Below, piece by piece: positions 7,713-24,245 of a stretch of DNA of 36,982 nucleotides. This stretch comes from Acidobacteriota bacterium (lineage in GTDB: Bacteria; Acidobacteriota; Blastocatellia; UBA7656). Each line of letters begins with the position of its first letter. The stretch's first letter is position 1. Both the position numbers and the translations under genes were made by a program. The stretch spans positions 45,152 through 82,133 of the forward strand of contig JBBPIG010000030.1 in NCBI GenBank assembly GCA_038040445.1, in the 5' to 3' direction. Below the pieces are notes generated by a model, which worked only from the letters and a program-made list of their open reading frames with translations, did no database searches and was not told where the DNA came from.

Positions 7713-7763
7713 TGGAATTCGTTAAACGCCTGGTGTAGCGAAAAGAGTTCTTCAGCAATTCGT

Positions 7764-8936
7764 CTAAAAGCCGAGTTCCGCCTCAATCTGCCGAATGCGC
7801 GTGACAAGCTTCAGCAGTTCAGACTCGCTCACCTGTTCTCCTCGCGCGATCTCTTCGCATCGCGAGAGGAGTCCGGTCAATCCGCGCTCATCAAGCTTGG
7901 CTCGGCGCGCGGCGGCGGCCGCCAGCCTGGCGTTGTCGATCTTCGCCGGAACTGCGCTGAAACGGCAAAGCCGTTTGCGAAACTCAGAGTATATGTTCTC
8001 CATCGCCAGGTCGCTCGCCTCAGCCAGCCGCGTGATGTTAGCCATCGAAGAAACGAACTCGAGATTGGTTGTTCTTCGTTCGCTCCTGAGAGGGATCGGG
8101 CGGCCGAACCTGCGACCGTAACTGTAGACGACAAGTACGGCGATCAACCCGGCCTGAGCCATCATCCACGGAATAGGCGTGCCGCGAAAGTAAGACATCA
8201 GACCACCGCCGGGCGATGACCCGCCGTAGCCGTGATGGTATTCGTCGAAGGCGACGTTTCCCGCCGGACGCTCGGCCAACAGGTTGAGCGCGAGAATCAC
8301 ATTGTCGGCTTGCGAGATGCCGTTGTTGGCGACGACGTATGGATCACTCAGCAGTACCACGCGTCCTTTGCCGACCTGTGCGTCGGCGAGAATCGCAGCT
8401 TGATCGTCTCCGATGTGATACGTGGCGGCGCGGCTGTCAACCCTGACTCGGGTCGCGTAAGCCGAAAGCGCGACACGCTGGACGTTGCGAGTGAAAAGAG
8501 TTGGCTGCAACGGATGAACCGCCGACGATGAGCGGGCTTGTTCGGTATGCACTACCGCATCGCCGAGGGTCACATTGCGAATATCCCGGTCGATGATTAT
8601 CAGCAGACCTCCCGCTTCAATCCATTTGTTTAGCGCGATGAATTCATCTTCGTCGGGATTGTGAGCCTTAGGCGGCGCGATGACGACGAGAGAGCCGGGC
8701 TCGTGATATTTCAGCTCGGTGAACGGCTTCTCGAAGCGCACTACGCGATAGCCGCTCTCTTCGAGCAAAGTATAGAACGCCAGGGTGCCGTAGGGAGTCG
8801 AGCGGTATGACGAGCGATCGCCTGTCAGTTCGTCTTCTTCTGTTGCCCGCGTGTCGACGAAGAAGACGAAGTTGAGCGCAACCAGCACCAGGAACAAACC
8901 GGCTATCAGCAGAATTGCGTTCGCGTTTCGTTTCAT
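7764..8936 (-). CDS. DUF4350 domain membrane protein
   Basis: This is a 390-residue protein. An N-terminal membrane anchor (about residues 6-26, AILLIAGLFLVLVALNFVFF) is followed by a DUF4350-type extracytoplasmic domain (STPYGTLAFYTLLEESGYRVVRFEKP, then LVVIAPPKAHNPDEDEFIALNKWIEAGG). A second membrane segment lies near residues 245-260 (WMMAQAGLIAVLVVYSYG), followed by a soluble C-terminal helical tail. DUF4350 proteins usually sit in operons with a MoxR ATPase, a DUF58 protein and other membrane proteins. None of these is next to it here, which is unusual, and the function remains unknown. Eight GGTTCAG units lie just upstream of its start codon. Confidence 0.88.
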   Translation of the reverse strand: MKRNANAILLIAGLFLVLVALNFVFFVDTRATEEDELTGDRSSYRSTPYGTLAFYTLLEESGYRVVRFEKPFTELKYHEPGSLVVIAPPKAHNPDEDEFIALNKWIEAGGLLIIIDRDIRNVTLGDAVVHTEQARSSSAVHPLQPTLFTRNVQRVALSAYATRVRVDSRAATYHIGDDQAAILADAQVGKGRVVLLSDPYVVANNGISQADNVILALNLLAERPAGNVAFDEYHHGYGGSSPGGGLMSYFRGTPIPWMMAQAGLIAVLVVYSYGRRFGRPIPLRSERRTTNLEFVSSMANITRLAEASDLAMENIYSEFRKRLCRFSAVPAKIDNARLAAAAARRAKLDERGLTGLLSRCEEIARGEQVSESELLKLVTRIRQIEAELGF

Positions 8937-8941
8937 TCGTC

Positions 8942-9100
8942 GGTTCAGGGTTCAGGGTTCAGGGTTCAGGGTTCAGGGTTCAGGGTTCAGGGTTCAGGGT
9001 TGAAGTGAATCACTCGATCCCCAACCCGGAACTTCGAACCACAAACCCGGAACCGGGTCGTCACAACCCGGAACTCTGAACCACGAACCCGGAACCGCGA
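8942..9100. repeat. (GGTTCAG)8 tandem array plus inverted AACCCGGAAC phrases
   Basis: Eight exact GGTTCAG units occupy 8942-8997. The segment 9015-9096 then contains at least four AACCCGGAAC-type words, roughly complementary to the first array. The block lies immediately upstream of the DUF4350 start and downstream of the M1-like gene. No coding potential was seen. Confidence 0.92.
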
Positions 9101-9101
9101 A

Positions 9102-11507
9102 TCATTTCACATTGAACAGTGCTTGAGGGACGTCTTCCAGGAGCCAGGCGCTTCCGGCGCGATGCAACACGAACACCGCCGTGCCCGCCTGGTCTCTGCC
9201 CTCGGCCTTGACCTTGAGCCCGACATCGAGTGCCACACGATTGGAGTCGACTTGATCGGCGTGCAGTATCTCCGTCGTCCACGACGCGGGTCTGTTAACC
9301 GTTAGCCCTTGAACGAACCGCTTCAGGTTGTTCTTGATCACTAACTTGAAGAGCTTGTCCGAGTCCGGCTGCTTGATTGCCGCGTCGAGCTGAGTGATGT
9401 AAGCGCGCAGAGACTCGTCGATCTGAGGAGCAGCGCCGCCGGTTCGCTCCGCCTGTATCAACCCTTCGTGAGCCGCAACCTGCGCTGCCGCTTCATCGGC
9501 TTCGACGGCGGCCGCGCGAAACTGCCGCATTGCTTCGGCGGCTTGATTGCGCGCCATTGCCACCTGGCCGAGCGTTACTCGAGCCCACGCCAACGCCGGT
9601 CCAACAGGCGGGTCGAACTTGATCGCAGCGTTAGCTTCCGCGGCAGCGTCATCCATTTTCTTTTGCGCGGCAAGCGTTCGAGCCAGCCACGCGTGCAACA
9701 CGGCATTGCGCCCGTCAACCCGAACCGCTTGTCTCAGCATTGTCTCGGCTTCCGAATATTGCGCCTTGTTGAATGTCGCTATGCTTTCATTCAACAGGGT
9801 CTGCGCAGATTGGCGGGTCGTCTTTAAGTCCCCATCCCTCGCGTCGTTGTCGTAGCTGGTTTGAATGATGAGTTTGTCCGGATCGACCTCAACCGAGACG
9901 ATCTTCTCAGCGGTGGGGACCTCGGCGGTTGCGAGGCCTTCGGATTGGACCATCACCGAAGCGGTCACCTGTTTGCCCGAAGCAGTGACCGCCAGCAGCT
10001 TGACGGTGACGTCGCCCGTGCCCAGATTACGAAGATTGATCCGCTGCGTCCCCGGCTTGTCTGAAGGAAGCGGCGAGCCGACGATGATGTCCGGCTCGAC
10101 GATTGACTCAACCCATTGCTGAAACAGATTGTCGACTTCGGGCGGCGCACCCTTCGTCAAAGCGGCTCGCAGATCGTCAGTCGTGACGATCTTGTTTTGC
10201 GCGCCCGAGAGTATCGCCTTAAAGGCGGCAATGAGCCTTTCGCGGCCGGCCGCTTCCGCAAGCAACCTGTATACAAGCGGTCCCTTGCCGAACACCGCCA
10301 CACTGTAGTTAGGCAACAGCAAAGTCTGAACGCCTAACTCCGCATCGCGCCCCGATTTTGCGATCGGCGCGTAACTCCACCGCATGTTGGTGAACAAATC
10401 GCGGGCTGCGTCCTTGCCAAAGCGATCCTCGAAGTAGAGCGCGGCAAGATACCGCGGCAGCGAGTCGCGAAGGAACGCCGCGCTGCGAGCCTTCACCGCC
10501 GCGCGACTCTCCTGTGCGGATCGCGGCTCGCGCCCCCTCAAGCGCACGCGTCCATCAATCCATATGCGCGCGACGGCGTCGGCGAGTACTTCGACGACTC
10601 CCGCGTTGAGCGAGTCGCGGCGGAAGACTTGCTCGTTTAGCACAAGCACGCCAGGCTCTGTGAGATTTCCTGCGCGAACCGAGGATATTATTCGAAACGT
10701 CGAGCCTGGGGGCGGAGACCCAAGTGTCCTGGTGAGAAAATCGATGACGCGCCCCGCCTCCTCGCCCAGACGCGCGACGATCGCCCGCGGCTCCGCAGGC
10801 TTAGCGCCCGCCGAGACCGCAGTGATACCCGGCTGGACAAATATCTCAACCTTGACGCCCCCGTGATCGGAGCTGACCGGCTGGTCGAAGCTGCCGGCTA
10901 CGACGAGAGGCTGTGAATTGAGCGGCTGTTCAAAAGTTGAGTTCTGGCCCTCGGTCCTCAGCGTGCCCGAGGATAGCGCGCGAAAGCCGGCGGCCGGCGA
11001 CGCGGCGCTTACGGTCAACGTGAAGGGCGCCGTGGGTGGACCATAGAGCGTGAACGCTGTAGAGGGCGCCGGAAACCAGACTGCTTGAGGCGCCAACAGC
11101 ACCTCGCCTGGATAGACGTGAATCAACGGTGTGGATTCGGCTGCCTCGATGCGGTAGCTCACCTCGACAGTGGCCGTTGCTCCCGCCGCGATCGATGACT
11201 GTGGTGTGATGATGATCTGATTAAGCGTCGTGACCCGGCGATCTTCGACGGTCTCGACCTGAGCGGGTGCGCCATTAACCTTAGCGGCGGTTACCTTGGC
11301 CAGCTTCGTAAGTCTCAAATAGAGCTTTGGCTTCGGCGCCTGGCCGGCGTTGGATATGCTGAGTTCCGCTCGCGCATCGACTGCGCTGGCGGCGGTGTCG
11401 ATGCGCAGGTTGATGTTGTAGCGATCGACTTCAACTTCCTGCGCCGCCGCGCTGACTGATAGGGCTGCGGTGATAAAAAGGACCGGGAAGAATCTTTTGA
11501 GCATCAT
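9102..11507 (-). CDS. Exported M1-like (catalytically degenerate) protein with TPR region
   Basis: This is an 801-residue protein with a signal peptide (residues 1-22, ending VSAAAQ). Residues 24-470 follow the M1 aminopeptidase layout: an N-terminal beta domain, then EPGVLVLNEQVF where GAMEN would lie, then VEVLADAVARIWIDG (305-319) where HEXXH-x18-E is expected. The zinc motif is absent, so peptidase activity is unlikely. Residues 375-470 keep the M1 helical tail (GKGPLVYRLLAEAAG). A beta domain spans about 470-555. TPR-like helices cover about 565-690 (LLNESIATFNKAQYSEAETM and two more pairs), and a C-terminal domain of about 100 residues ends the protein. It may be a binding or scaffold protein rather than an enzyme; the ligand is unknown. 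Confidence 0.85.
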   Translation of the reverse strand: MMLKRFFPVLFITAALSVSAAAQEVEVDRYNINLRIDTAASAVDARAELSISNAGQAPKPKLYLRLTKLAKVTAAKVNGAPAQVETVEDRRVTTLNQIIITPQSSIAAGATATVEVSYRIEAAESTPLIHVYPGEVLLAPQAVWFPAPSTAFTLYGPPTAPFTLTVSAASPAAGFRALSSGTLRTEGQNSTFEQPLNSQPLVVAGSFDQPVSSDHGGVKVEIFVQPGITAVSAGAKPAEPRAIVARLGEEAGRVIDFLTRTLGSPPPGSTFRIISSVRAGNLTEPGVLVLNEQVFRRDSLNAGVVEVLADAVARIWIDGRVRLRGREPRSAQESRAAVKARSAAFLRDSLPRYLAALYFEDRFGKDAARDLFTNMRWSYAPIAKSGRDAELGVQTLLLPNYSVAVFGKGPLVYRLLAEAAGRERLIAAFKAILSGAQNKIVTTDDLRAALTKGAPPEVDNLFQQWVESIVEPDIIVGSPLPSDKPGTQRINLRNLGTGDVTVKLLAVTASGKQVTASVMVQSEGLATAEVPTAEKIVSVEVDPDKLIIQTSYDNDARDGDLKTTRQSAQTLLNESIATFNKAQYSEAETMLRQAVRVDGRNAVLHAWLARTLAAQKKMDDAAAEANAAIKFDPPVGPALAWARVTLGQVAMARNQAAEAMRQFRAAAVEADEAAAQVAAHEGLIQAERTGGAAPQIDESLRAYITQLDAAIKQPDSDKLFKLVIKNNLKRFVQGLTVNRPASWTTEILHADQVDSNRVALDVGLKVKAEGRDQAGTAVFVLHRAGSAWLLEDVPQALFNVK

Positions 11508-15108: not shown

Positions 15109-15321
15109 CTAGTGTCTTTCATCTGATGCGTCAAACACTTCCTGCACCCTGCCAACGTCTCCACTGACGAGCCGCACTTTAATCCCGTGCGTGTGAAACG
15201 AAGACTTGGTGAGGATGTCCTTGACTATGCCTCGCGTCAGTGTTGCCGTGCCTTGATCCTTTTTCAGAATAATATCCACCTCGGCTCCGGCGCGGACGTT
15301 CTTTCGGTGTTGACCATTCAT
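15109..15321 (-). CDS. ywbE: YwbE family protein (DUF2196)
   Basis: This 70-residue protein is recognisable along its whole length: MNGQHRKNVRAGAEVDIILK, then KKDQGTATLTRGIVKDILT, then HGIKVRLVSGDVGRVQEV. It is a small beta-rich KOW-like fold of unknown function, widely conserved. A Shine-Dalgarno (TGAGGTCC, read on the minus strand) lies just upstream of the ATG. It lies 105 bp downstream of the antitoxin gene and 47 bp upstream of uup, all on the minus strand, so cotranscription is possible. Confidence 0.92.
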   Translation of the reverse strand: MNGQHRKNVRAGAEVDIILKKDQGTATLTRGIVKDILTKSSFHTHGIKVRLVSGDVGRVQEVFDASDERH

Positions 15322-15372
15322 AGGACCTCACGAATAACATCGCTCTGCATAATAAACCTAAACCTCCTGTCT

Positions 15373-15412
15373 TCTCGGCGAGTTTCTCTGCGAACCTCTG
15401 CGCCCCTGCGGT
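15373..15412. repeat. CGCAGAG-type dispersed intergenic word
   Basis: On the minus strand this gap reads AACCGCAGGGGCGCAGAGG, followed by TTCGCAGAGAAACTCGC. This is a variant of the ACCGCAGAGGCGCAGAG phrase that recurs between genes in many bacterial genomes. Only one copy is in this window. Confidence 0.45.
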
Positions 15413-15426
15413 TAATCCCACTCGCT

Positions 15427-15720
15427 TCATTCTTCTTCCGCTATGCCCTTCTCAGCAAAGAATTCCCGGAAGAACTCTGCCGCCGGTTTGCCGGCGTTAT
15501 TTTTCATGCTTTGGAGCCCGCGCTTTATTCCTTCGATGGTTTCCATTCTGTCTTTCGCTTCCAACAATTCTTGGTAGCTCTCGGCGTCTTGGACAACCAA
15601 CTCGGCTTTTCCGTTTACGGTCAGCACGACAGGCGCTTTGGCCTTCTTCATTTGGCGCACCAGCTTCGCGGTGTCGCGCTTGAATGTGCTGAGGCTATGA
15701 ATATCACGGGTAAGTTTCAT
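15427..15720 (-). CDS. Phd/YefM-family antitoxin, orphan
   Basis: This 97-residue protein begins MKLTRDIHSLSTFKRDTAKL and continues APVVLTVNGKAELVVQDAESYQELLE, the hallmark of the Phd/YefM DNA-binding N-terminal fold. The C-terminal half (about 55-97) is the helical, toxin-neutralising part. Such proteins bind and inhibit RelE/ParE or Doc toxins and repress their own promoter. No toxin gene lies on either side: the downstream 105 bp is repeat-like and then ywbE starts. It is therefore an orphan antitoxin, or it works with a toxin elsewhere. The palindrome TGACAATGTCA at 15754-15764, 34 bp upstream of the start, is a candidate autoregulatory operator. Confidence 0.88.
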   Translation of the reverse strand: MKLTRDIHSLSTFKRDTAKLVRQMKKAKAPVVLTVNGKAELVVQDAESYQELLEAKDRMETIEGIKRGLQSMKNNAGKPAAEFFREFFAEKGIAEEE

Positions 15721-15764: not shown

Positions 15765-16103
15765 GTTTTAGCATGTCCGGGCTGTTCCGTCACACGTCAA
15801 ACAGTCGCAAGCAACCCCACCTCTTGGTTGCGAAGTTCTAAAAAACGCGATGTTGTTAGTTGTGTGACTTTGGAAATGAATTTTTGGTTGCAGATTCAGT
15901 GACTGTGTGATATACCATATTCCATCTTAGACAAGACGCACTTTCTATTCAGCTATTCTTAGGAGTTTGTTTCTCTCAGTACATGCATTCCGAACGCTGC
16001 GGAGGGCGAATTGTGCCCGAATCGGCCGCTCTGCGATATGCGAATCGGGGATCGGCTCTACCGGCGCAATGCTGGCGCCTAAGGTAAATCAAGGAGGTTA
16101 CTG
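15765..16103. other. Divergent intergenic region ahead of the heme-protein gene set
   Basis: This is the gap between the antitoxin gene and the three-gene set starting at 16104. It is AT-richer than its surroundings, especially 15835-15960, as expected of promoter DNA. A weak TTGGTT/TGATAT pair near 15885-15915 is possible but unconvincing. The strong Shine-Dalgarno AAGGAGG just before 16104 is clear. No gene is supported. Confidence 0.5.
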
Positions 16104-16367
16104 ATGTCAGACGAGAATCCAACCTGGGACGATGATATCGAAGGCTTTTTCACCCAACTCGATATCGGGTGCATGAGGAATGTGGCCGGTTTCGACCCAC
16201 CCCTGGACCTGAGTGACTACGAATCCGTCAAGAAAAACGCCACCCGGATCCACGGCGCGGTTAGCGCCGGGAGAATGCCAAAAGGGGACAGACCCTGGGC
16301 ACCCGAGAAAGTCGCTGTGTTCAAGAAGTGGATCGACATAGGCGCCCCTAAGGAAGCTACTCCTTAG
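16104..16367 (+). CDS. Small cytochrome-c-like protein lacking the heme motif
   Basis: This is an 87-residue protein with an excellent Shine-Dalgarno (AAGGAGG). Its pattern, I..FF..LDIGCM...DLSDYESVKKNA, ending GRMPKGDRPWAPEKVAVFKK, then WIDIGAP, resembles the C-terminal part of small cytochrome-c-like modules, in which MP...W...F..W...GAP is common. It has no CXXCH and no signal peptide, so it cannot be an ordinary c-type cytochrome. A relative (LDL....V..N...I..AV..GRMP....W...F..W..GG) is encoded at 17907, on the far side of the heme-motif gene. The three genes read as one operon. Function unknown. Confidence 0.8.
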   Translation: MSDENPTWDDDIEGFFTQLDIGCMRNVAGFDPPLDLSDYESVKKNATRIHGAVSAGRMPKGDRPWAPEKVAVFKKWIDIGAPKEATP

Positions 16368-16427
16368 CGACAACGAAGTCTCAATGCAAGCGGCTTGGTG
16401 TGCGATTGGATCAAAAGGAGAAACCTC

Positions 16428-17903
16428 ATGAGAAAGCTCATCAGTGTGATTGCCCTGATCATATTCGTGTGGGTCGTCGCGGCCCAGTCACGCTCGACAA
16501 TTTACCTCTCGACCGCCACAGCACCCACCTCGCTGGCCGACGAATTAGAGCGGCTGTGCAAGTGCGATCGACAATTCGGTCCGCCTGCCCCGGTCCTCGA
16601 TCCCAAAGTGCTGCCGGTTGACGTTAGCCTGAAGGACAACAAGACCTGTATTGAAGGTAGTTGCCAACCCTGCTTTGATTGTTACGGGTGGCAACTCTTT
16701 CTCACTTTGAACTGGCCTGCGAAGCCGTCGGGTGAACCCGACCCTGATGCTTACTTCGGCAGACCGGGTTTCCTGGGCAACGTAGGGTGGGAAACCTTCG
16801 CGAGTGTCTATGACATATTCGGAGGAGGACAACCACGGGCGTGGGCAGAACTCGGTAGCGGTCCCAGAACCGTAGAGGGCACATCAGCGGTCATCCACCA
16901 GAATTTGGTGGACTACCGGCAGGCGGATCACAATTGGTTGACCGATTGGGATCGAAATCTCGTTCGCTTCGAAATCCGGGTCAACAAGGACGAATTTGAC
17001 TATATCGTTCAAAACCAATTGTATGATCAAGACGGCCTCTATAAGGCATTCACAACCCCGACGGGCGCCGGCGTAGATCTTCCATCCGGAAAAGCTGGAG
17101 GGATCGGCTCCATAGAAATCAAGGCGGCGTGGCGCATCGTTCCAAAAGATCGTGAAGAGTACTTTAGGAAGAACTACAAGATCGCGAACGTAAAAATCCC
17201 GCCCAGCCAGGATGATGTTCTTGTGGCACTGGTCGGACTGCACATCACTAAGAAGACTCCCAACTCGCCACAGTGGGTCTGGGCAACTTTCGAACACCAG
17301 GACAATGTCCCGGATGGTCCGCCTGATCCGTCGAAAAAATACAACTTCTTCAACCCGGCCGCGCCCAGCAACTACAAGCCAAACTACAACGACCCGCCGG
17401 CGCGAAGATCGGACCGCCGGGTGCCCGTGCAAGTCGTGCGCGCAAGCCCAATCGATTCTCGAGCGATTGAGATCAACAAGGCCGTCCATGCCCTGATATC
17501 CGCCAAGTATCCGGATTCAGTTTGGAGAAACTATAACTTGATCGACGTCCAGTGGCCGACCATGCCCGTCTTCAATCGGGACCCAAAATCCACCGCAGCC
17601 TTGCCTTCCGGAAAGCCGGCTCCCATTGTGGTCGCTAATATCACAATGGAGACATATATGCAGACCCAGAAGAGCGGAGGCGCCGCGGGAACGAGCCCGG
17701 GAGGCGCCGATCGTACGGATCCAGGAAATCTTCCGGCTACTGACCCCAACTACGGAAAATCCAGTTGCATCGGTTGCCATCGGTTATCGGCGATCACACC
17801 AACCTTTGTGGGGAAAAGAGGTTCCTGGAAGACCGACTACAGCATGATCTTTTTCAAGGCCAAACCCAAAATGATTACCCGCAAGACCACTGCAAGGAGA
17901 TAA
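16428..17903 (+). CDS. Exported protein with one CXXCH heme motif, unknown family
   Basis: The start at 16428 is chosen because AAAGGAG precedes it and it yields a signal peptide (MRKLISVIALIIFVWVVAAQ). The mature protein of about 470 residues has a Cys-rich N-terminal part (LCKCDRQ, CIEGSCQPCFDC) and then WQLFLTLNWPAKPSGEPDP. The latter resembles the WQ-F-ALNWP motif of a family of uncharacterised proteins often annotated as cytochrome c-like. One heme-attachment motif, CIGCH, lies at residues 447-451 of 491. This points to a periplasmic redox or heme protein. The two flanking small genes are related to each other and were probably recruited with it. No cytochrome oxidase or maturation genes are nearby. 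The family assignment is tentative. Confidence 0.85.
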   Translation: MRKLISVIALIIFVWVVAAQSRSTIYLSTATAPTSLADELERLCKCDRQFGPPAPVLDPKVLPVDVSLKDNKTCIEGSCQPCFDCYGWQLFLTLNWPAKPSGEPDPDAYFGRPGFLGNVGWETFASVYDIFGGGQPRAWAELGSGPRTVEGTSAVIHQNLVDYRQADHNWLTDWDRNLVRFEIRVNKDEFDYIVQNQLYDQDGLYKAFTTPTGAGVDLPSGKAGGIGSIEIKAAWRIVPKDREEYFRKNYKIANVKIPPSQDDVLVALVGLHITKKTPNSPQWVWATFEHQDNVPDGPPDPSKKYNFFNPAAPSNYKPNYNDPPARRSDRRVPVQVVRASPIDSRAIEINKAVHALISAKYPDSVWRNYNLIDVQWPTMPVFNRDPKSTAALPSGKPAPIVVANITMETYMQTQKSGGAAGTSPGGADRTDPGNLPATDPNYGKSSCIGCHRLSAITPTFVGKRGSWKTDYSMIFFKAKPKMITRKTTARR

Positions 17904-17906
17904 CTT

Positions 17907-18188
17907 ATGTCTAACGTACCACCGAGCGCGCTGGCTGGGCCGCCATTCTCAACAACCGTCAAGCCTTACTTCACCGAATGCTATAGGGACCACATGTCAT
18001 TCATGCTGGACCTCTGGAGCCCCTCGGACGTTTGCTCCAACTACGACGGGATTAGAGACGCCGTCGTAAATGGCCGCATGCCGCCTCCAAAGGATCAGGG
18101 CTGTGAAGGTGAGTGGAACCCCGACCAGAGGAGCAAATTCTTGAGCGATTTTGACGCCTGGCACAAGGGCGGCTGCAATCCAGCCTGA
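17907..18188 (+). CDS. Second small cytochrome-c-like protein lacking the heme motif
   Basis: This 93-residue protein starts 3 bp after the stop of the heme-motif gene, with AGGAG before the ATG, so it is in the same operon. It has TVKPYFTECYRDHMSFMLDL, then VCSNYDGIRDAVVNGRMPPP, then W...F..DFDAWHKGGC. The GRMP-W-F-W-GG pattern matches the 87-residue protein at 16104. It has four cysteines but no CXXCH and no signal peptide. It is probably a divergent paralogue of the first small protein; function unknown. Confidence 0.8.
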   Translation: MSNVPPSALAGPPFSTTVKPYFTECYRDHMSFMLDLWSPSDVCSNYDGIRDAVVNGRMPPPKDQGCEGEWNPDQRSKFLSDFDAWHKGGCNPA

Positions 18189-18503: not shown

Positions 18504-20201
18504 TTACTTGCCCTTCGCCAAGACGAAGTTCGGCTCAATATCCACCGGCACATTGCCAAGTTTGTCGAGCGCCTTCTGCATCTCCGGCCGGATCAAGCCT
18601 AACTTGTCGAGCATCGCCTTCGCTTTTTCGTATGATCCTTCCGCCTCGATCGTCATGATCTCGCTTGCCAGCTTGCGCACCGCGTCCTTGATCTTCGAAG
18701 TGTCGATGCTGTACGTCCCGGCAGCTTCATCTATCTTGATCCCGCCCTCGTCGAGCAAGTAGTTGAACTGGAGCGCCTGGCCTTTGCCGTGTGCTTCGGT
18801 TATTCCGAAACGCACCGATCGAAATGAGCTGGCCAAATAAGTCGTGTAAAGGTCGCGCTCCATGGAGCGCTCGACCGCGCCTTTGTCGATCAAGTATTGC
18901 AGAGCCCACAGACCGGTGATGTCCGCCTTCGCCTCTTCGATCGCCGAGTACAGTTCCTTCAATTCTTTTCGAACGCTGGTGTCGCGCCCTCCGACCTTGA
19001 TGTTGTGAGGTCCGAGCCCGTGCATGAGCTCGTGCGCGAGTATGTGGGTGAAGAACGCATCAAACGAAATCTGAGATTGCTGCAACGGGTCCATTACCAC
19101 TCTTGAGATGGGAACCAGCGCCTGATTGAACTTGGCTTGCTGGACGTTCTTGAGCATCACCCGTTTCGAGCCTTTTTCCTTGACGACCTTTTCATCGTTA
19201 GGAAGGTTGAACGCCGCGGTCTGTACACCGCGATTGCCATCGCCCGAGCAGAACACGTTATCGACAACCCGAATCGGAGAAGCGGCGCCGAGTTTTGGAT
19301 TGCGATAACGCGGATCGATCGGCAAGTTGTTCTCGAGGTCTTGAAGGTGGCCGCTGAACTTGACCAGCTTCGCAGACTCGGCTTCGTCCCTCAGAGTGAT
19401 GAACGCTTCGAACGCTGCCTTGTATCCGAACAACTCGTCTTCGTAGGTTTCGTAAGGCCCGATCGTCACGTCAATCGGAGCATCCAGGTCCATCCAGGCG
19501 ACGTCGCTTGCGTAGTAGTCGTCGGACGCGAACGCCTCCGCGCGCTTTGTAAGAAAGTTCTTGAGCGTCTGGTTGCCGGTCAGGTCCGCCGCTTCTCTCA
19601 GGAGCTTCGCCGCCGGTTCGAGGAACTCGCGATACTCTTCGTGATAAGGAACAATCTTGAGCTTGCCGTCCGCTCCTCGCCTGATAACGGTGAAAAACCC
19701 GGTGGCCCGGTTCTTATCCTCCTCCGAGAGACCGTGCACCCAACCGTTGAATTCGTCCTTCGACATATCGTCGGGATAGAACCCACCATGCGACGGCTTT
19801 TCGTGCGGAGCGCCATCGATAAACGGCTCGTTCTTGTCCAGGCGCGACCACGGCCCTTTGTTGATCATGAAATGGTGCAAGCGCTCGCGACCTTCAGGGC
19901 TCGTGTCCGCCTCGAGTTTCTTGAGCAGCGCTTCATTTCCGCTCCAGACCTGGCGGAGGAAGATTGGATCGAGCAGCTTTGCCGCCTGGATGAGCTTATC
20001 GAGAGCCTTGCGATCGTTCTCCGAAAGATGTGACGTATCGGCCGATAGATCAGTCGGAGCAAACCGGCGGATCTTGGCAGTCAGAGAGTCGGCGGGCCCT
20101 TTTGATTCAGACACCTTCGGCTCCTCCTTCTGAGAGGTGCAGGCAACAAGCACAACGCCGATCGCCATCGCCAGCGAACAGGTCTTGATAGATGACTTCA
20201 T
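18504..20201 (-). CDS. M49-like (dipeptidyl-peptidase III family) zinc lipoprotein peptidase
   Basis: This is a 565-residue protein. A lipoprotein signal has lipobox LVAC with C21. Zinc motif H390-E-L-M-H394 lies in FFTHILAHELMHGLGPHN, and the second metal/catalytic motif EEAKAD (422-427) is about 30 residues later. These align with the HEXXGH...EECRAE pair of DPP III, except that the usual extra residue in the first motif is absent, so the motif is a plain HEXXH. Other family-like stretches are IGPYETYEDELFGYKAAFEA and NVFCSGDGNRGVQTAAFNLP. The protein is predicted to be membrane-anchored and to cleave peptides outside the cytoplasm. A candidate promoter lies at 20261-20289. Confidence 0.88.
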   Translation of the reverse strand: MKSSIKTCSLAMAIGVVLVACTSQKEEPKVSESKGPADSLTAKIRRFAPTDLSADTSHLSENDRKALDKLIQAAKLLDPIFLRQVWSGNEALLKKLEADTSPEGRERLHHFMINKGPWSRLDKNEPFIDGAPHEKPSHGGFYPDDMSKDEFNGWVHGLSEEDKNRATGFFTVIRRGADGKLKIVPYHEEYREFLEPAAKLLREAADLTGNQTLKNFLTKRAEAFASDDYYASDVAWMDLDAPIDVTIGPYETYEDELFGYKAAFEAFITLRDEAESAKLVKFSGHLQDLENNLPIDPRYRNPKLGAASPIRVVDNVFCSGDGNRGVQTAAFNLPNDEKVVKEKGSKRVMLKNVQQAKFNQALVPISRVVMDPLQQSQISFDAFFTHILAHELMHGLGPHNIKVGGRDTSVRKELKELYSAIEEAKADITGLWALQYLIDKGAVERSMERDLYTTYLASSFRSVRFGITEAHGKGQALQFNYLLDEGGIKIDEAAGTYSIDTSKIKDAVRKLASEIMTIEAEGSYEKAKAMLDKLGLIRPEMQKALDKLGNVPVDIEPNFVLAKGK

Positions 20202-20589: not shown

Positions 20590-20937
20590 ATGAGTAAAAA
20601 AATCTACGTCGGAAATCTGTCGTATCAAACGACGGAAGCCGACCTCACCACCCTGTTTGAACAGGTTGGTCAGGTTGATTCAGTTAATGTTATTACGGAC
20701 CGGGACACCGGACGCTCGAAGGGCTTTGCTTTTGTCGAGATGAGCAATGAGGATGCTGATAAGGCGATCACCCAGCTCAATGGAACAGAGGTGAATGGCC
20801 GCACTCTGACAGTCAATGAAGCGCGGCCGCGCGAGGAGCGCTCAGGCAATCGCGGCGGCTACGGCGGAGGACGCAGCAGTGGCGGCGGCGGTGGCCGAGG
20901 TGGCTACGGCGGCGGCGGCGGCGGCGGCCGCTACTAA
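20590..20937 (+). CDS. RRM-domain glycine-rich RNA-binding protein
   Basis: This 115-residue protein has a single RNA recognition motif with RNP2 IYVGNL (residues 5-10) and RNP1 KGFAFVEM (44-51), followed by a Gly/Arg/Tyr tail (88-115). This is the architecture of cyanobacterial Rbp proteins and of plant glycine-rich RNA-binding proteins, many of them cold-induced RNA chaperones. A clear Shine-Dalgarno (AGGAG) precedes the ATG. It lies 218 bp upstream of a DEAD-box helicase gene on the same strand, with IF-1 and a desaturase beyond, consistent with an RNA-remodelling role in the cold (inference). Confidence 0.96.
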   Translation: MSKKIYVGNLSYQTTEADLTTLFEQVGQVDSVNVITDRDTGRSKGFAFVEMSNEDADKAITQLNGTEVNGRTLTVNEARPREERSGNRGGYGGGRSSGGGGGRGGYGGGGGGGRY

Positions 20938-21155: not shown

Positions 21156-22373
21156 ATGAGTTTAAACAGTTTTAGCGAGCTGGGCCTGTGTGCTCCGCTT
21201 GCAGATGCACTTGAGAAACAAGGCATCACCGATCCAACAGAGATTCAAACGAAGACGATACCGCACGCGCTTGCGGGACGAAACATAATGGCTTCGGCGG
21301 AGACGGGTTCAGGCAAGACGTTGGCCTTTCTTCTCCCCATCATTCAGCGGCTGAGCGGTCCCGGCCCGACGCGCGCTCTTGTACTCGCTCCAACCCGGGA
21401 GCTAGCTCTGCAGACTGAAGCAAACGCGAAAAGCTACGGCCGCACGGCCGGGCTTCGCACGGTGGCGGTTGTGGGCGGCGAGAGCTTGCCCAGACAGATC
21501 AGGGCGCTTCGAACCGGCGTTGACATCCTGGTTGCAACGCCCGGCCGGTTGAACGATTTGATCGAGCGAGGCACGGTGCCGCTCAAGGCGGTTGAGGTGC
21601 TCGTGCTCGACGAGGCGGATCGAATGCTCGACATGGGCTTTCTGCCGCAGGTCAGGCGAATCATCAAGCATCTTCCCACAAAGCGTCAGACTATGTTATT
21701 GACGGCGACGCTTTCTCGAGATGTAGAACGGCTAGCCCAGGAATTGCTGGCGAACCACGTTAGAGTTGAAGCATCCAGAGTGGCGCAGACCGTTGCGACA
21801 CTCACTCAGAAAGCCTTCGCAGTGCTCTCGCACGCTAAGACTCCAATGCTGCTTGCATTGCTCAGAGAGCACTCTGGGGAAAGCTTTCTGGTCTTCACAC
21901 AGACCAGACGGTGCGCCGACAGAGTGGCGCGAATACTTACGGCCAACAAGCACGACGTCGTCACGCTACATTCTGATCGCAGCCAGGCGCAGCGCAATAA
22001 GGCGTTGGACAGCTTTCGTTCCGGACGCGTGCGGGTCCTGGTAGCCACGGATGTTGCCGCCCGCGGTATTGACGTGGATGATATCTCATTTGTTATAAAC
22101 TATGAGGTGCCCGCGACCGCTGACGATTACATCCATCGCGTCGGGCGAACAGCTCGCGCGGGCCGGAACGGCGCGGCTCTAACACTGGTAAGCCCGGAAG
22201 AGGAATCGACGCTGGCATCCATTGAGCGGATCGCGGGGATCAGGCTGGAGCGCTCGAGGCTGATGGGGTTTACCGATGGCAGGTCCGAGGAGCAGGTAAG
22301 ATTGACGAGTGAGATTGGCCGGCTCCGCTCGTCTTCAACGCGCTCCTTCAGGGCGAATCGCGCATCGCGCTAG
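21156..22373 (+). CDS. DEAD-box ATP-dependent RNA helicase (RhlE-like)
   Basis: The full set of DEAD-box motifs is visible in 405 residues: a Q-motif region (GITDPTEIQTKTIP), ASAETGSGKT (46-55), PTRELA (79-84), TPGR, DEAD (152-155), TAT (183-185), the ATDVAARGID region and HRVGRTARAG (327-336). The C-terminal tail after the core is short and basic (SSSTRSFRANRASR). It unwinds structured RNA, in ribosome assembly, mRNA decay or cold-induced remodelling. A GAAAGAGAG stretch precedes the ATG. It sits between an RRM protein gene and infA. RhlE is the closest E. coli type by length and simple tail; CsdA-type function cannot be excluded. Confidence 0.95.
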   Translation: MSLNSFSELGLCAPLADALEKQGITDPTEIQTKTIPHALAGRNIMASAETGSGKTLAFLLPIIQRLSGPGPTRALVLAPTRELALQTEANAKSYGRTAGLRTVAVVGGESLPRQIRALRTGVDILVATPGRLNDLIERGTVPLKAVEVLVLDEADRMLDMGFLPQVRRIIKHLPTKRQTMLLTATLSRDVERLAQELLANHVRVEASRVAQTVATLTQKAFAVLSHAKTPMLLALLREHSGESFLVFTQTRRCADRVARILTANKHDVVTLHSDRSQAQRNKALDSFRSGRVRVLVATDVAARGIDVDDISFVINYEVPATADDYIHRVGRTARAGRNGAALTLVSPEEESTLASIERIAGIRLERSRLMGFTDGRSEEQVRLTSEIGRLRSSSTRSFRANRASR

Positions 22374-23267: not shown

Positions 23268-24245
23268 ATGCGGAAACGGGTGAGCGCTGGCAGCGTTAAG
23301 TTTGTCCAACAGCGTATCGAAAGACGGGATAGACAAGTGAGATCAACGAAATTAGTAGATGAGCAGCCCTGGGCCCGACCCTGGTGGCAATATTCAGAGG
23401 GAAACGGTCCCGTTCTGTTTTATATCGCTGCTGTTCACGTGCTTGCGGTGGTGGGTTTGCTCTTATTCCCCTTGCCTGGTTGGCGCGTGCTGGCAGTGGC
23501 TCTCGCAGTCGCTTCAATCGGGGGCGTTGGAACATCCGTGTGTTATCACCGCAGCCTTGCTCACCGCTCTTTGCGGCTGAATCGCGTCGTAGAGAATGTG
23601 CTCGTATTCTTCACGATCTTCAACGCATCGGGTGAGCCTATGTCTTGGGTGGCCAATCATCGCCATCATCACGCGAAAGCGGATACTGTCGAAGATGTCT
23701 CGAGCCCTCGCCACGGAGGCTTCTGGTGGGCGCATATCAAATGGGTTTATCAATGGTCGGGCTCGGAAGTCAGCCGCTGGTGCCCTGATTTGAATCAGCC
23801 CAGATACAAGGTGTGGAAGAAGCTCCAAACGCCGATCATTGCGCTTTCAGTATTCTCGGGGCTAGTTTGGGGATGGGAAGCGTTTTTCTGGATTGGCGCG
23901 ATCCGGTTGGTCTATGCGCTGCACTTTCAAATGTTCGTCAACAGCTTACTTCACATGACGCCCGGGCTGCCTGAGGGCGTGGATTCCAGTCGAAACATCT
24001 GGTGGCTCGGTCCGTTGCAGTTTGGGGCGTGGGGCGAGAACTGGCATAAGAATCATCACTCTGATGCAAACGCGGCAAGGTTCGGGCGCAGATGGTGGCA
24101 GATTGATTTCGGATGGTATGTGATCTCGGGACTCAAGGCGCTCAGGCTTGCGAGCGACGTCCGGCCAACAAGAGACAGCCTTAAGAGAGAGACCAGTCCG
24201 GGCAAAATGACACCCGCGGATGCTGCGGCTTTGAGCAATCAGTAA
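23268..24245 (+). CDS. Fatty acid desaturase (acyl-CoA / delta-9 type)
   Basis: This 325-residue membrane protein has the three histidine boxes of the desaturases: H94-RSLA-H99, H131-RH-H134-H135 and H260-KN-H263-H264. Hydrophobic segments lie around 47-67, 73-90, 107-120 and 190-225. These enzymes use a di-iron centre, O2 and an electron donor to introduce a double bond into acyl chains, which keeps membranes fluid in the cold. Box order and spacing fit the acyl-CoA/stearoyl delta-9 group. A GTG at 23337 is an alternative start; neither start has a strong Shine-Dalgarno. Its neighbours suggest a shared cold response (inference). Confidence 0.95.
   Translation: MRKRVSAGSVKFVQQRIERRDRQVRSTKLVDEQPWARPWWQYSEGNGPVLFYIAAVHVLAVVGLLLFPLPGWRVLAVALAVASIGGVGTSVCYHRSLAHRSLRLNRVVENVLVFFTIFNASGEPMSWVANHRHHHAKADTVEDVSSPRHGGFWWAHIKWVYQWSGSEVSRWCPDLNQPRYKVWKKLQTPIIALSVFSGLVWGWEAFFWIGAIRLVYALHFQMFVNSLLHMTPGLPEGVDSSRNIWWLGPLQFGAWGENWHKNHHSDANAARFGRRWWQIDFGWYVISGLKALRLASDVRPTRDSLKRETSPGKMTPADAAALSNQ

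Follow-up and report, generated by a model that had tools for sequence, protein, structure and literature searches.

The S1–C–S3 locus

The window, a 36,982-nucleotide stretch from an Acidobacteriota genome of 6.7 Mb, carries three successive + strand genes that we designate S1, C and S3. S1 (16104–16367) and S3 (17907–18188) encode heme-less cytochrome c-like proteins of 87 and 93 amino acids, both matched by an HMM of the S family described below (E 3.4e-34 and 5e-31, respectively, with each protein part of the seed). Between them lies C (16428–17903), which encodes an exported protein of 491 amino acids with a single CXXCH motif and a predicted giant P460/c'-beta fold; we prefer its ATG at 16428 to the TTG start given in the mechanical ORF list.

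Simple hydropathy analysis identifies a strongly hydrophobic N-terminus in C, with a signal peptide extending approximately over 16428–16487, and the sole CXXCH of the protein, the heme motif CIGCH, is found near the C-terminus at 17766–17780. The N-termini of S1 and S3 are hydrophilic by the same measure, and neither protein contains a signal peptide or a CXXCH motif. An earlier interpretation of this DNA, the sequence-only reading, had described an exported central protein with one CIGCH motif flanked by two proteins possessing neither motif nor signal peptide, and all of this holds. The mismatch in export that it pointed out is seen also in the four other loci with both an S protein and C that were checked (L014, L163, L177 and L159). 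Scans of Pfam and NCBIfam up to E 1 returned no family for S1, C or S3, apart from one Pfam match to S1 at E 0.3, which is below cut-off.

Each gene is preceded by a strong Shine–Dalgarno sequence on the + strand, AAGGAGG at 16091–16097 for S1 and AAGGAG at 16415–16420 and 17894–17899 for C and S3. These ribosome-binding sites had been cited together with tight spacing as an argument for an operon. The former are present at all three genes, but the gaps are 60 bases (S1 to C) and three bases (C to S3), so that spacing is truly tight for C and S3 alone. No promoter-like site was found at the trio, and terminator-like sites, of which there are four and none on the + strand, are as many as the mean of 4.0 obtained with shuffled sequence; a single transcript covering S1, C and S3 is therefore likely.

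The flanking genes look unrelated to the trio. Upstream are genes for a Phd-type antitoxin, a YwbE family protein and a two-domain ABC ATPase; the antitoxin (15427–15720, − strand, TIGR01552) is followed by a short overlapping ORF (15179–15430, − strand) at the position expected for a toxin. Downstream, a Peptidase family M49 protein (18504–20201, − strand, Pfam E 1.6e-15) has a start that by eye is lipoprotein-like, and beyond it, on the + strand, are an RRM RNA-binding protein (20590–20937), a DEAD-box helicase (21156–22373) and an ORF at 23268–24245 with an NCBIfam match to a DesA-like desaturase at E 6.1e-26, below cut-off, and no Pfam match at E 1.

The S family and its cytochrome c-like relatives

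The sequence-only reading had proposed that the two flanking proteins are related to one another and cytochrome c-like, and both proposals have been borne out, the kinship of S1 and S3 via intermediates only: a search with S1 does not reach S3 directly but both reach a free-standing protein of the same genome, L002 (E 8e-11 and 2.9e-13). Cytochrome c domains are usually recognised by their CXXCH motif. S-family profiles match c-type cytochrome domains that possess this motif, including domains within the longer proteins L018 (domain E 3.6e-4) and L134 (E 7.9e-9), and in all 25 CXXCH domains were matched at E 1e-4 or better. The two kinds of domain have a pattern in common that comprises MPP and a conserved tryptophan. 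They differ in that S lacks both the CXXCH motif, the histidine of which is replaced by methionine, and a signal peptide.

Across an alignment of seven S copies, two methionines do not vary; numbered as in S1, they are Met24 and Met58. HMM alignment places Met24 (16173–16175) at the position of the CXXCH histidine and Met58 (16275–16277), which forms part of a GRMP motif, at that of the axial methionine. These columns were examined in 59 domains from the loci collected, 25 with CXXCH and 34 without, a set that includes overlapping loci, two overlapping entries from the same protein (L172) and a number of copies that are almost identical. In the Met24 column, 24 of the 25 CXXCH-bearing domains have histidine, whereas methionine is present in all 30 of the CXXCH-lacking domains, fused copies included, for which this column is filled. 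In the Met58 column, methionine is present in 25/25 of the former and in 30/32 of the latter with a residue at that position. The position of the heme histidine is thus now occupied by methionine in heme-less S, with the axial methionine retained, and on these alignments the S domains form a family that is related to cytochrome c but appears to have lost the covalent attachment of heme.

Structural comparison is in keeping with this. The AlphaFold2 model of S1 (pLDDT 79.2) is all-helical, and following structural re-alignment its best match is FoxE, a c-type cytochrome, at Z 5.9 with 80 residues aligned, ahead of a second row at Z 2.5; a Foldseek search with the same model gave no match at E 0.001. 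Among solved structures, the only strong match of the S profile is to the last domain (residues 659–744) of the fungal cyclopenase AsqI (PDB 5yy2/5yy3), at E 2.8e-12, or 1.7e-11 in another profile search. The match is near full-length and both methionines are retained in AsqI, but there the domain is joined to a zinc enzyme of hemocyanin-like type. For this protein, the available portion of the crystal paper (PMC6053404) describes a single zinc site and no heme.

S is a portable domain, found on AsqI as well as on several other enzymes. We also considered whether S might contain a TTQ or CTQ cofactor and rejected this: Cys23 is present in 8 of the 30 heme-less S domains for which this column is filled, and the tryptophans are absent by eye from the VioB-like copies in alignment A4.

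The C proteins and the P460/c'-beta fold

Relatives of C were found at 27 loci of named genomes and in 51 plasmid records; seven of 58 genomes encode one, as do 14 of the 297 examined from the phylum, with the window's own genome counted in both. The single CXXCH near the C-terminus is invariant in all 27 rows of alignment A3, in which the window protein is included, and in a larger alignment of 56 C sequences it is conserved in 49/49 of those with residues in this region. A few relatives (L113, L118) have three CXXCH motifs. Five further residues are invariant in the 56 aligned sequences: Lys232 (17121–17123), Trp235 and His272 in 53/53, and Asn404 and Glu408 in 51/51, of those with a residue at the position.

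The predicted structure of C (pLDDT 76.9, pTM 0.83) does not look like a cytochrome c fold. When the model was compared with 933 chains by structural re-alignment, the top 17 of the 36 entries listed were all P460 or c'-beta proteins, with Z scores of 5.5–6.4 over 126–137 aligned residues and the next entry at 3.0, although these 17 are variants of about six proteins and a Z below 8 may mean merely a common arrangement. The first three Foldseek matches were also to P460, at E 0.12–0.28, with nothing at E 0.001. On the strength of the model, C looks like a giant, divergent member of the P460/c'-beta fold. Its predicted sheet re-aligns best with the characterised superfamily (PF16694; PDB 6hiu, 2je2, 7ead), the fold of which is a five-stranded antiparallel sheet, and C resembles that superfamily in its single C-terminal CXXCH and in having an invariant lysine at the aligned cross-link position, but members of that superfamily are compact proteins of ~140 amino acids, whereas C has 491, has no Pfam match and shows sequence similarity to them that is near noise.

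The case from sequence by itself is marginal, and we reject sequence as sufficient by itself to link C to P460. In a search of the PDB with a C profile, P460 entries were obtained at E 1.5 and 2.4, ranked behind an unrelated protein at 0.16. The profile alignment is nevertheless in register, with GSIEVKAAW on DGAILVKLSW and CXXCH on CXXCH, and so places Lys232, albeit weakly, on Lys78 of Methylococcus P460 (McP460). Lys78 is described in the available sections of two papers as the lysine bound to the heme (PMC6427953, PMC11928373), and Gly73 and Lys78 are given in the first of these as being among five residues conserved across 144 aligned P460s. The position of the distal Asp102 of McP460 is, by eye, not acidic in the profile consensus, judging from a table in the second (PMC11928373). 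Alignment of A3 and A2 with P460 relatives by hhalign recovered the CXXCH stretch only, and a core slice scored 16.4, a value exceeded by 5 of 100 column shuffles. The Pfam P460 model PF16694 does not match the window protein; it weakly matches three of the 27 A3 rows (best E 0.0035), with an unrelated model, DUF3716, scarcely worse (5/27, best E 0.0081). One C relative, L036, has a separate Pfam P460 domain ahead of its C-like part (E 3.5e-6).

In L024, L025, L027, L032 and L037, C is preceded by a protein of another single-CXXCH family; the L027 member has no Pfam match.

S and C across genomes and their possible role

S and C occur together in 18 loci, the window included, with S free-standing in eight and fused to another protein in ten. 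A survey covered 49 C loci, or 48 once L082, a duplicate of L014, is set aside; in 12 of these a heme-less S is present in a gene neighbouring C, and six further loci were reached via plasmids or via S. The remaining 36 have no S in the stretch examined, some of these stretches being short or cut by contig ends, and the S match in L018, being to a CXXCH cytochrome, was excluded from the count. The small proteins thus do co-occur with the central gene in other genomes, spanning the Acidobacteriota and the alpha- and gammaproteobacteria, and on this point the sequence-only reading keeps its ground. What it took to be a symmetric layout turns out to be a local feature. In Acidobacteria bacterium isolate RYN_26 (L014) three S genes surround C, such that the S–C–S arrangement recurs, but order and copy number vary (S-S-C-S, S-C, C-S and C-gene-S); in L078, S lies immediately before C.

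Several of the free-standing S genes are proteobacterial. Paracoccus zhejiangensis has C followed by S, as do two Shewanella at second loci in the genomes that contain L031 and L033, with one of these C genes only partly open. Rhizobium leguminosarum and Bradyrhizobium elkanii encode C, a repeat protein that by eye is beta-propeller-like, and a free-standing S, which in R. leguminosarum is 87 amino acids long; these rhizobial plasmid sets occupy 5776–8952 in L163 and 3282–6258 in L175. One plasmid search in the survey returned seven records including that of the query itself, of which two others (H18 and H22) were examined, and a plasmid search with an S3-type protein returned no match.

Where S is fused, the proteins involved are diverse. 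In L015, a LodA-like protein with a terminal S is followed by C and then by a LodB/GoxB-like protein, an arrangement that resembles LodA/GoxA–LodB/GoxB quinoprotein systems. In Paracoccus denitrificans (L159) a tyrosinase with an N-terminal S is separated from C by one gene; the annotated start of this tyrosinase (2347) falls inside the S domain (2248–2514) and an ATG is present upstream at 2236. In eight loci (L016, L020, L026, L028, L031, L033, L035 and L121) a protein neighbouring C ends in S. The VioB model matches all three of these that were tested (L016, E 7.5e-13; L020, 2.6e-19; L026, 1e-8), in each case far under cut-off and over the first part of the model, and in L016 and L026 the match spans most of S; this sets these proteins apart from, as well as beside, VioB/RebD-type synthases. 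The L028 protein and three S-ending proteins from Shewanella fall into the same BLAST cluster as the VioB-like ones. The seed of the S profile includes the copies from L016, L026 and L028 but excludes those from L020, L031, L033, L035 and L121. A profile built from the three VioB-like S copies (placed in A4 by eye) recovers the remaining Shewanella proteins that bear S (E 2.4e-7 to 1.2e-6), and one built from the latter matches a free-standing S at E 5.5e-6. No solved structure was found by sequence for a VioB-like relative at E 0.1.

How strong is the association? Twelve heme-less S places stand out as the strongest in the 297 genomes (E <1e-13, no CXXCH), and half of them have a C gene no more than 1.5 kb away. 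The profile used had seven seeds, however, six of them from places in G000 and G016 that were known through C or S1, and five of the six places beside C are themselves seeds, so that a fair test is limited to the six non-seed places. One of these six, in G290, is beside C. Amongst 21 C-bearing genomes, two of four non-seed strong S places (E <1e-12) are beside C, both of them in Shewanella. By our own arithmetic random placement would put S beside C about one time in a thousand, far below what is observed.

S is also found without C in the stretch, at eight places (L074, L075, L076, which is at a contig end, L077, L079, L080, L179 and L180), either alone or fused to a protein that by eye is ferritin-like, tyrosinase-like or similar to a small dehydrogenase subunit. 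In L080 (7426–9246), S is at the end of the ferritin-like protein, near genes that by eye are LodA-like and Dyp-like; a search of that genome with PF17990 gave no match at E 0.001.

C, for its part, has varied oxidoreductases as neighbours. In L030 it lies beside a GMC oxidoreductase that is accompanied by a small subunit with a Tat signal, the Azospirillum locus is annotated likewise and L081 appears similar by eye, whilst another neighbourhood includes a molybdopterin-binding protein. That a protein with one heme is found beside differing dehydrogenases and oxidases is explained most simply if C is their electron partner, perhaps as acceptor, a suggestion drawn from gene neighbourhood. Among the neighbouring proteins scanned at the trio itself, no LodA-like gene and no other enzyme of the kinds that S is fused to elsewhere was recognised. 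The one PF17990 match in its genome is on another contig (L132, G000:C4), where a LodA-like gene (7753–9531, E 3.6e-74) in which no S was found is followed by a gene that is LodB-like by eye (9578–10759); this pair is a possible partner of the trio.

Taken together, these results lead us to propose, with a probability of roughly 0.4, that S1, C and S3 constitute a single redox module in which C acts as an exported heme protein with a redox function and S, lacking heme, serves for docking. C would be a c-type heme protein built around an enlarged sheet of P460/c'-beta-like form, binding a single heme covalently and possessing the invariant lysine; following export, its heme would be attached in the periplasm and it would pass on or take up electrons. 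S1 and S3 would serve as adaptors, or docking subunits, linking C to an oxidoreductase, and would be separate subunits where free-standing, as here; in other genomes, S is instead fused to such an enzyme (LodA-like, tyrosinase or VioB-like) with C encoded alongside. That S lacks an export signal and C has one counts against contact between them, which would require some further route: S might be exported folded with a partner, or might act before export. The heme-handling role raised in the sequence-only reading finds no support, and both the likeness of C to P460/c'-beta and the portability of S were missed there.

The possibility that S is no more than a structural or stabilising relic, shuffled among oxidases and adjacent to C through shared gene clusters without contact, is one that we take seriously but doubt. 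S is found on unrelated enzymes and alone without C, most C loci (36/48) are without S, and among the non-seed strong places of the 297 genomes just that in G290 adjoins C. Even so, 1/6 and 2/4 are both far in excess of the one in a thousand expected by chance, and the pairs recur in three separate bacterial groups. S might instead be a cofactor domain, with non-covalent heme b or Cu(I) held between Met24 and Met58 in a two-methionine site usable in the cytoplasm. In favour of this, methionine occupies the former heme-histidine position in 30/30 heme-less domains and the axial position in 30/32, even if the copies are not all independent, and a neutral relic would be expected to drift. We regard this as rather unlikely, as the methionines might merely pack the core and AsqI retains both, yet a single zinc site and no heme are described for it in what is available of the crystal paper. 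Unlikelier still is an extended version in which the S family is a new type of redox domain, a cytochrome c fold that gave up covalent heme with His/Met ligation in exchange for two methionines binding heme b or Cu(I), that can be used without export, plugs into oxidases in fused or separate form, and pairs across the export divide with a giant lysine-cross-linked P460-type cytochrome.

Two other readings centre on catalysis. C might be a P460-type enzyme in which a lysine-cross-linked heme oxidises a small substrate, with the S proteins as regulators or substrates. The invariance of Lys232 and its alignment with McP460 Lys78, described as heme-bound in the part of PMC6427953 available, would fit this, as would the conservation of His272, Asn404 and Glu408, but the C–P460 alignment is weak and the residue opposite the distal Asp102 is not acidic; we consider it improbable. 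The set of C, repeat protein and 87 amino acid S in R. leguminosarum, and the similar set in B. elkanii, resemble the layout of QHNDH. In a QHNDH-like complex, a small subunit that has no signal peptide but bears a protein-derived cofactor would be exported folded and assembled on a cytochrome, and in the rhizobia on the propeller-like protein. Here the cysteine needed for CTQ is not conserved (the 8/30 noted above), and an S–C complex of this kind seems very improbable indeed. We continue to favour a redox module with S as docking domain.

The sequence-only reading had called the system undescribed. A limited search of the open-access literature found no description of the S–C combination or of a cytochrome c-like domain without CXXCH, and for P460 with tyrosinase and operon nothing beyond nitrifier genomes; given the extent of the search, the term is provisional, as is our view of the pairing of a P460-like fold with a cytochrome c fold as a new arrangement of two known kinds. 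As a branch of the cytochrome c domains with methionine in place of the heme histidine throughout the copies examined, S would represent a new accessory domain, carried by a quinoprotein-like protein, tyrosinases and VioB-like proteins, and C would add to the P460/c'-beta fold a large group with members in several phyla. The S domain provides a handle on many genes annotated as encoding hypothetical proteins, and the invariant lysine of C is directly testable for a cross-link to heme.
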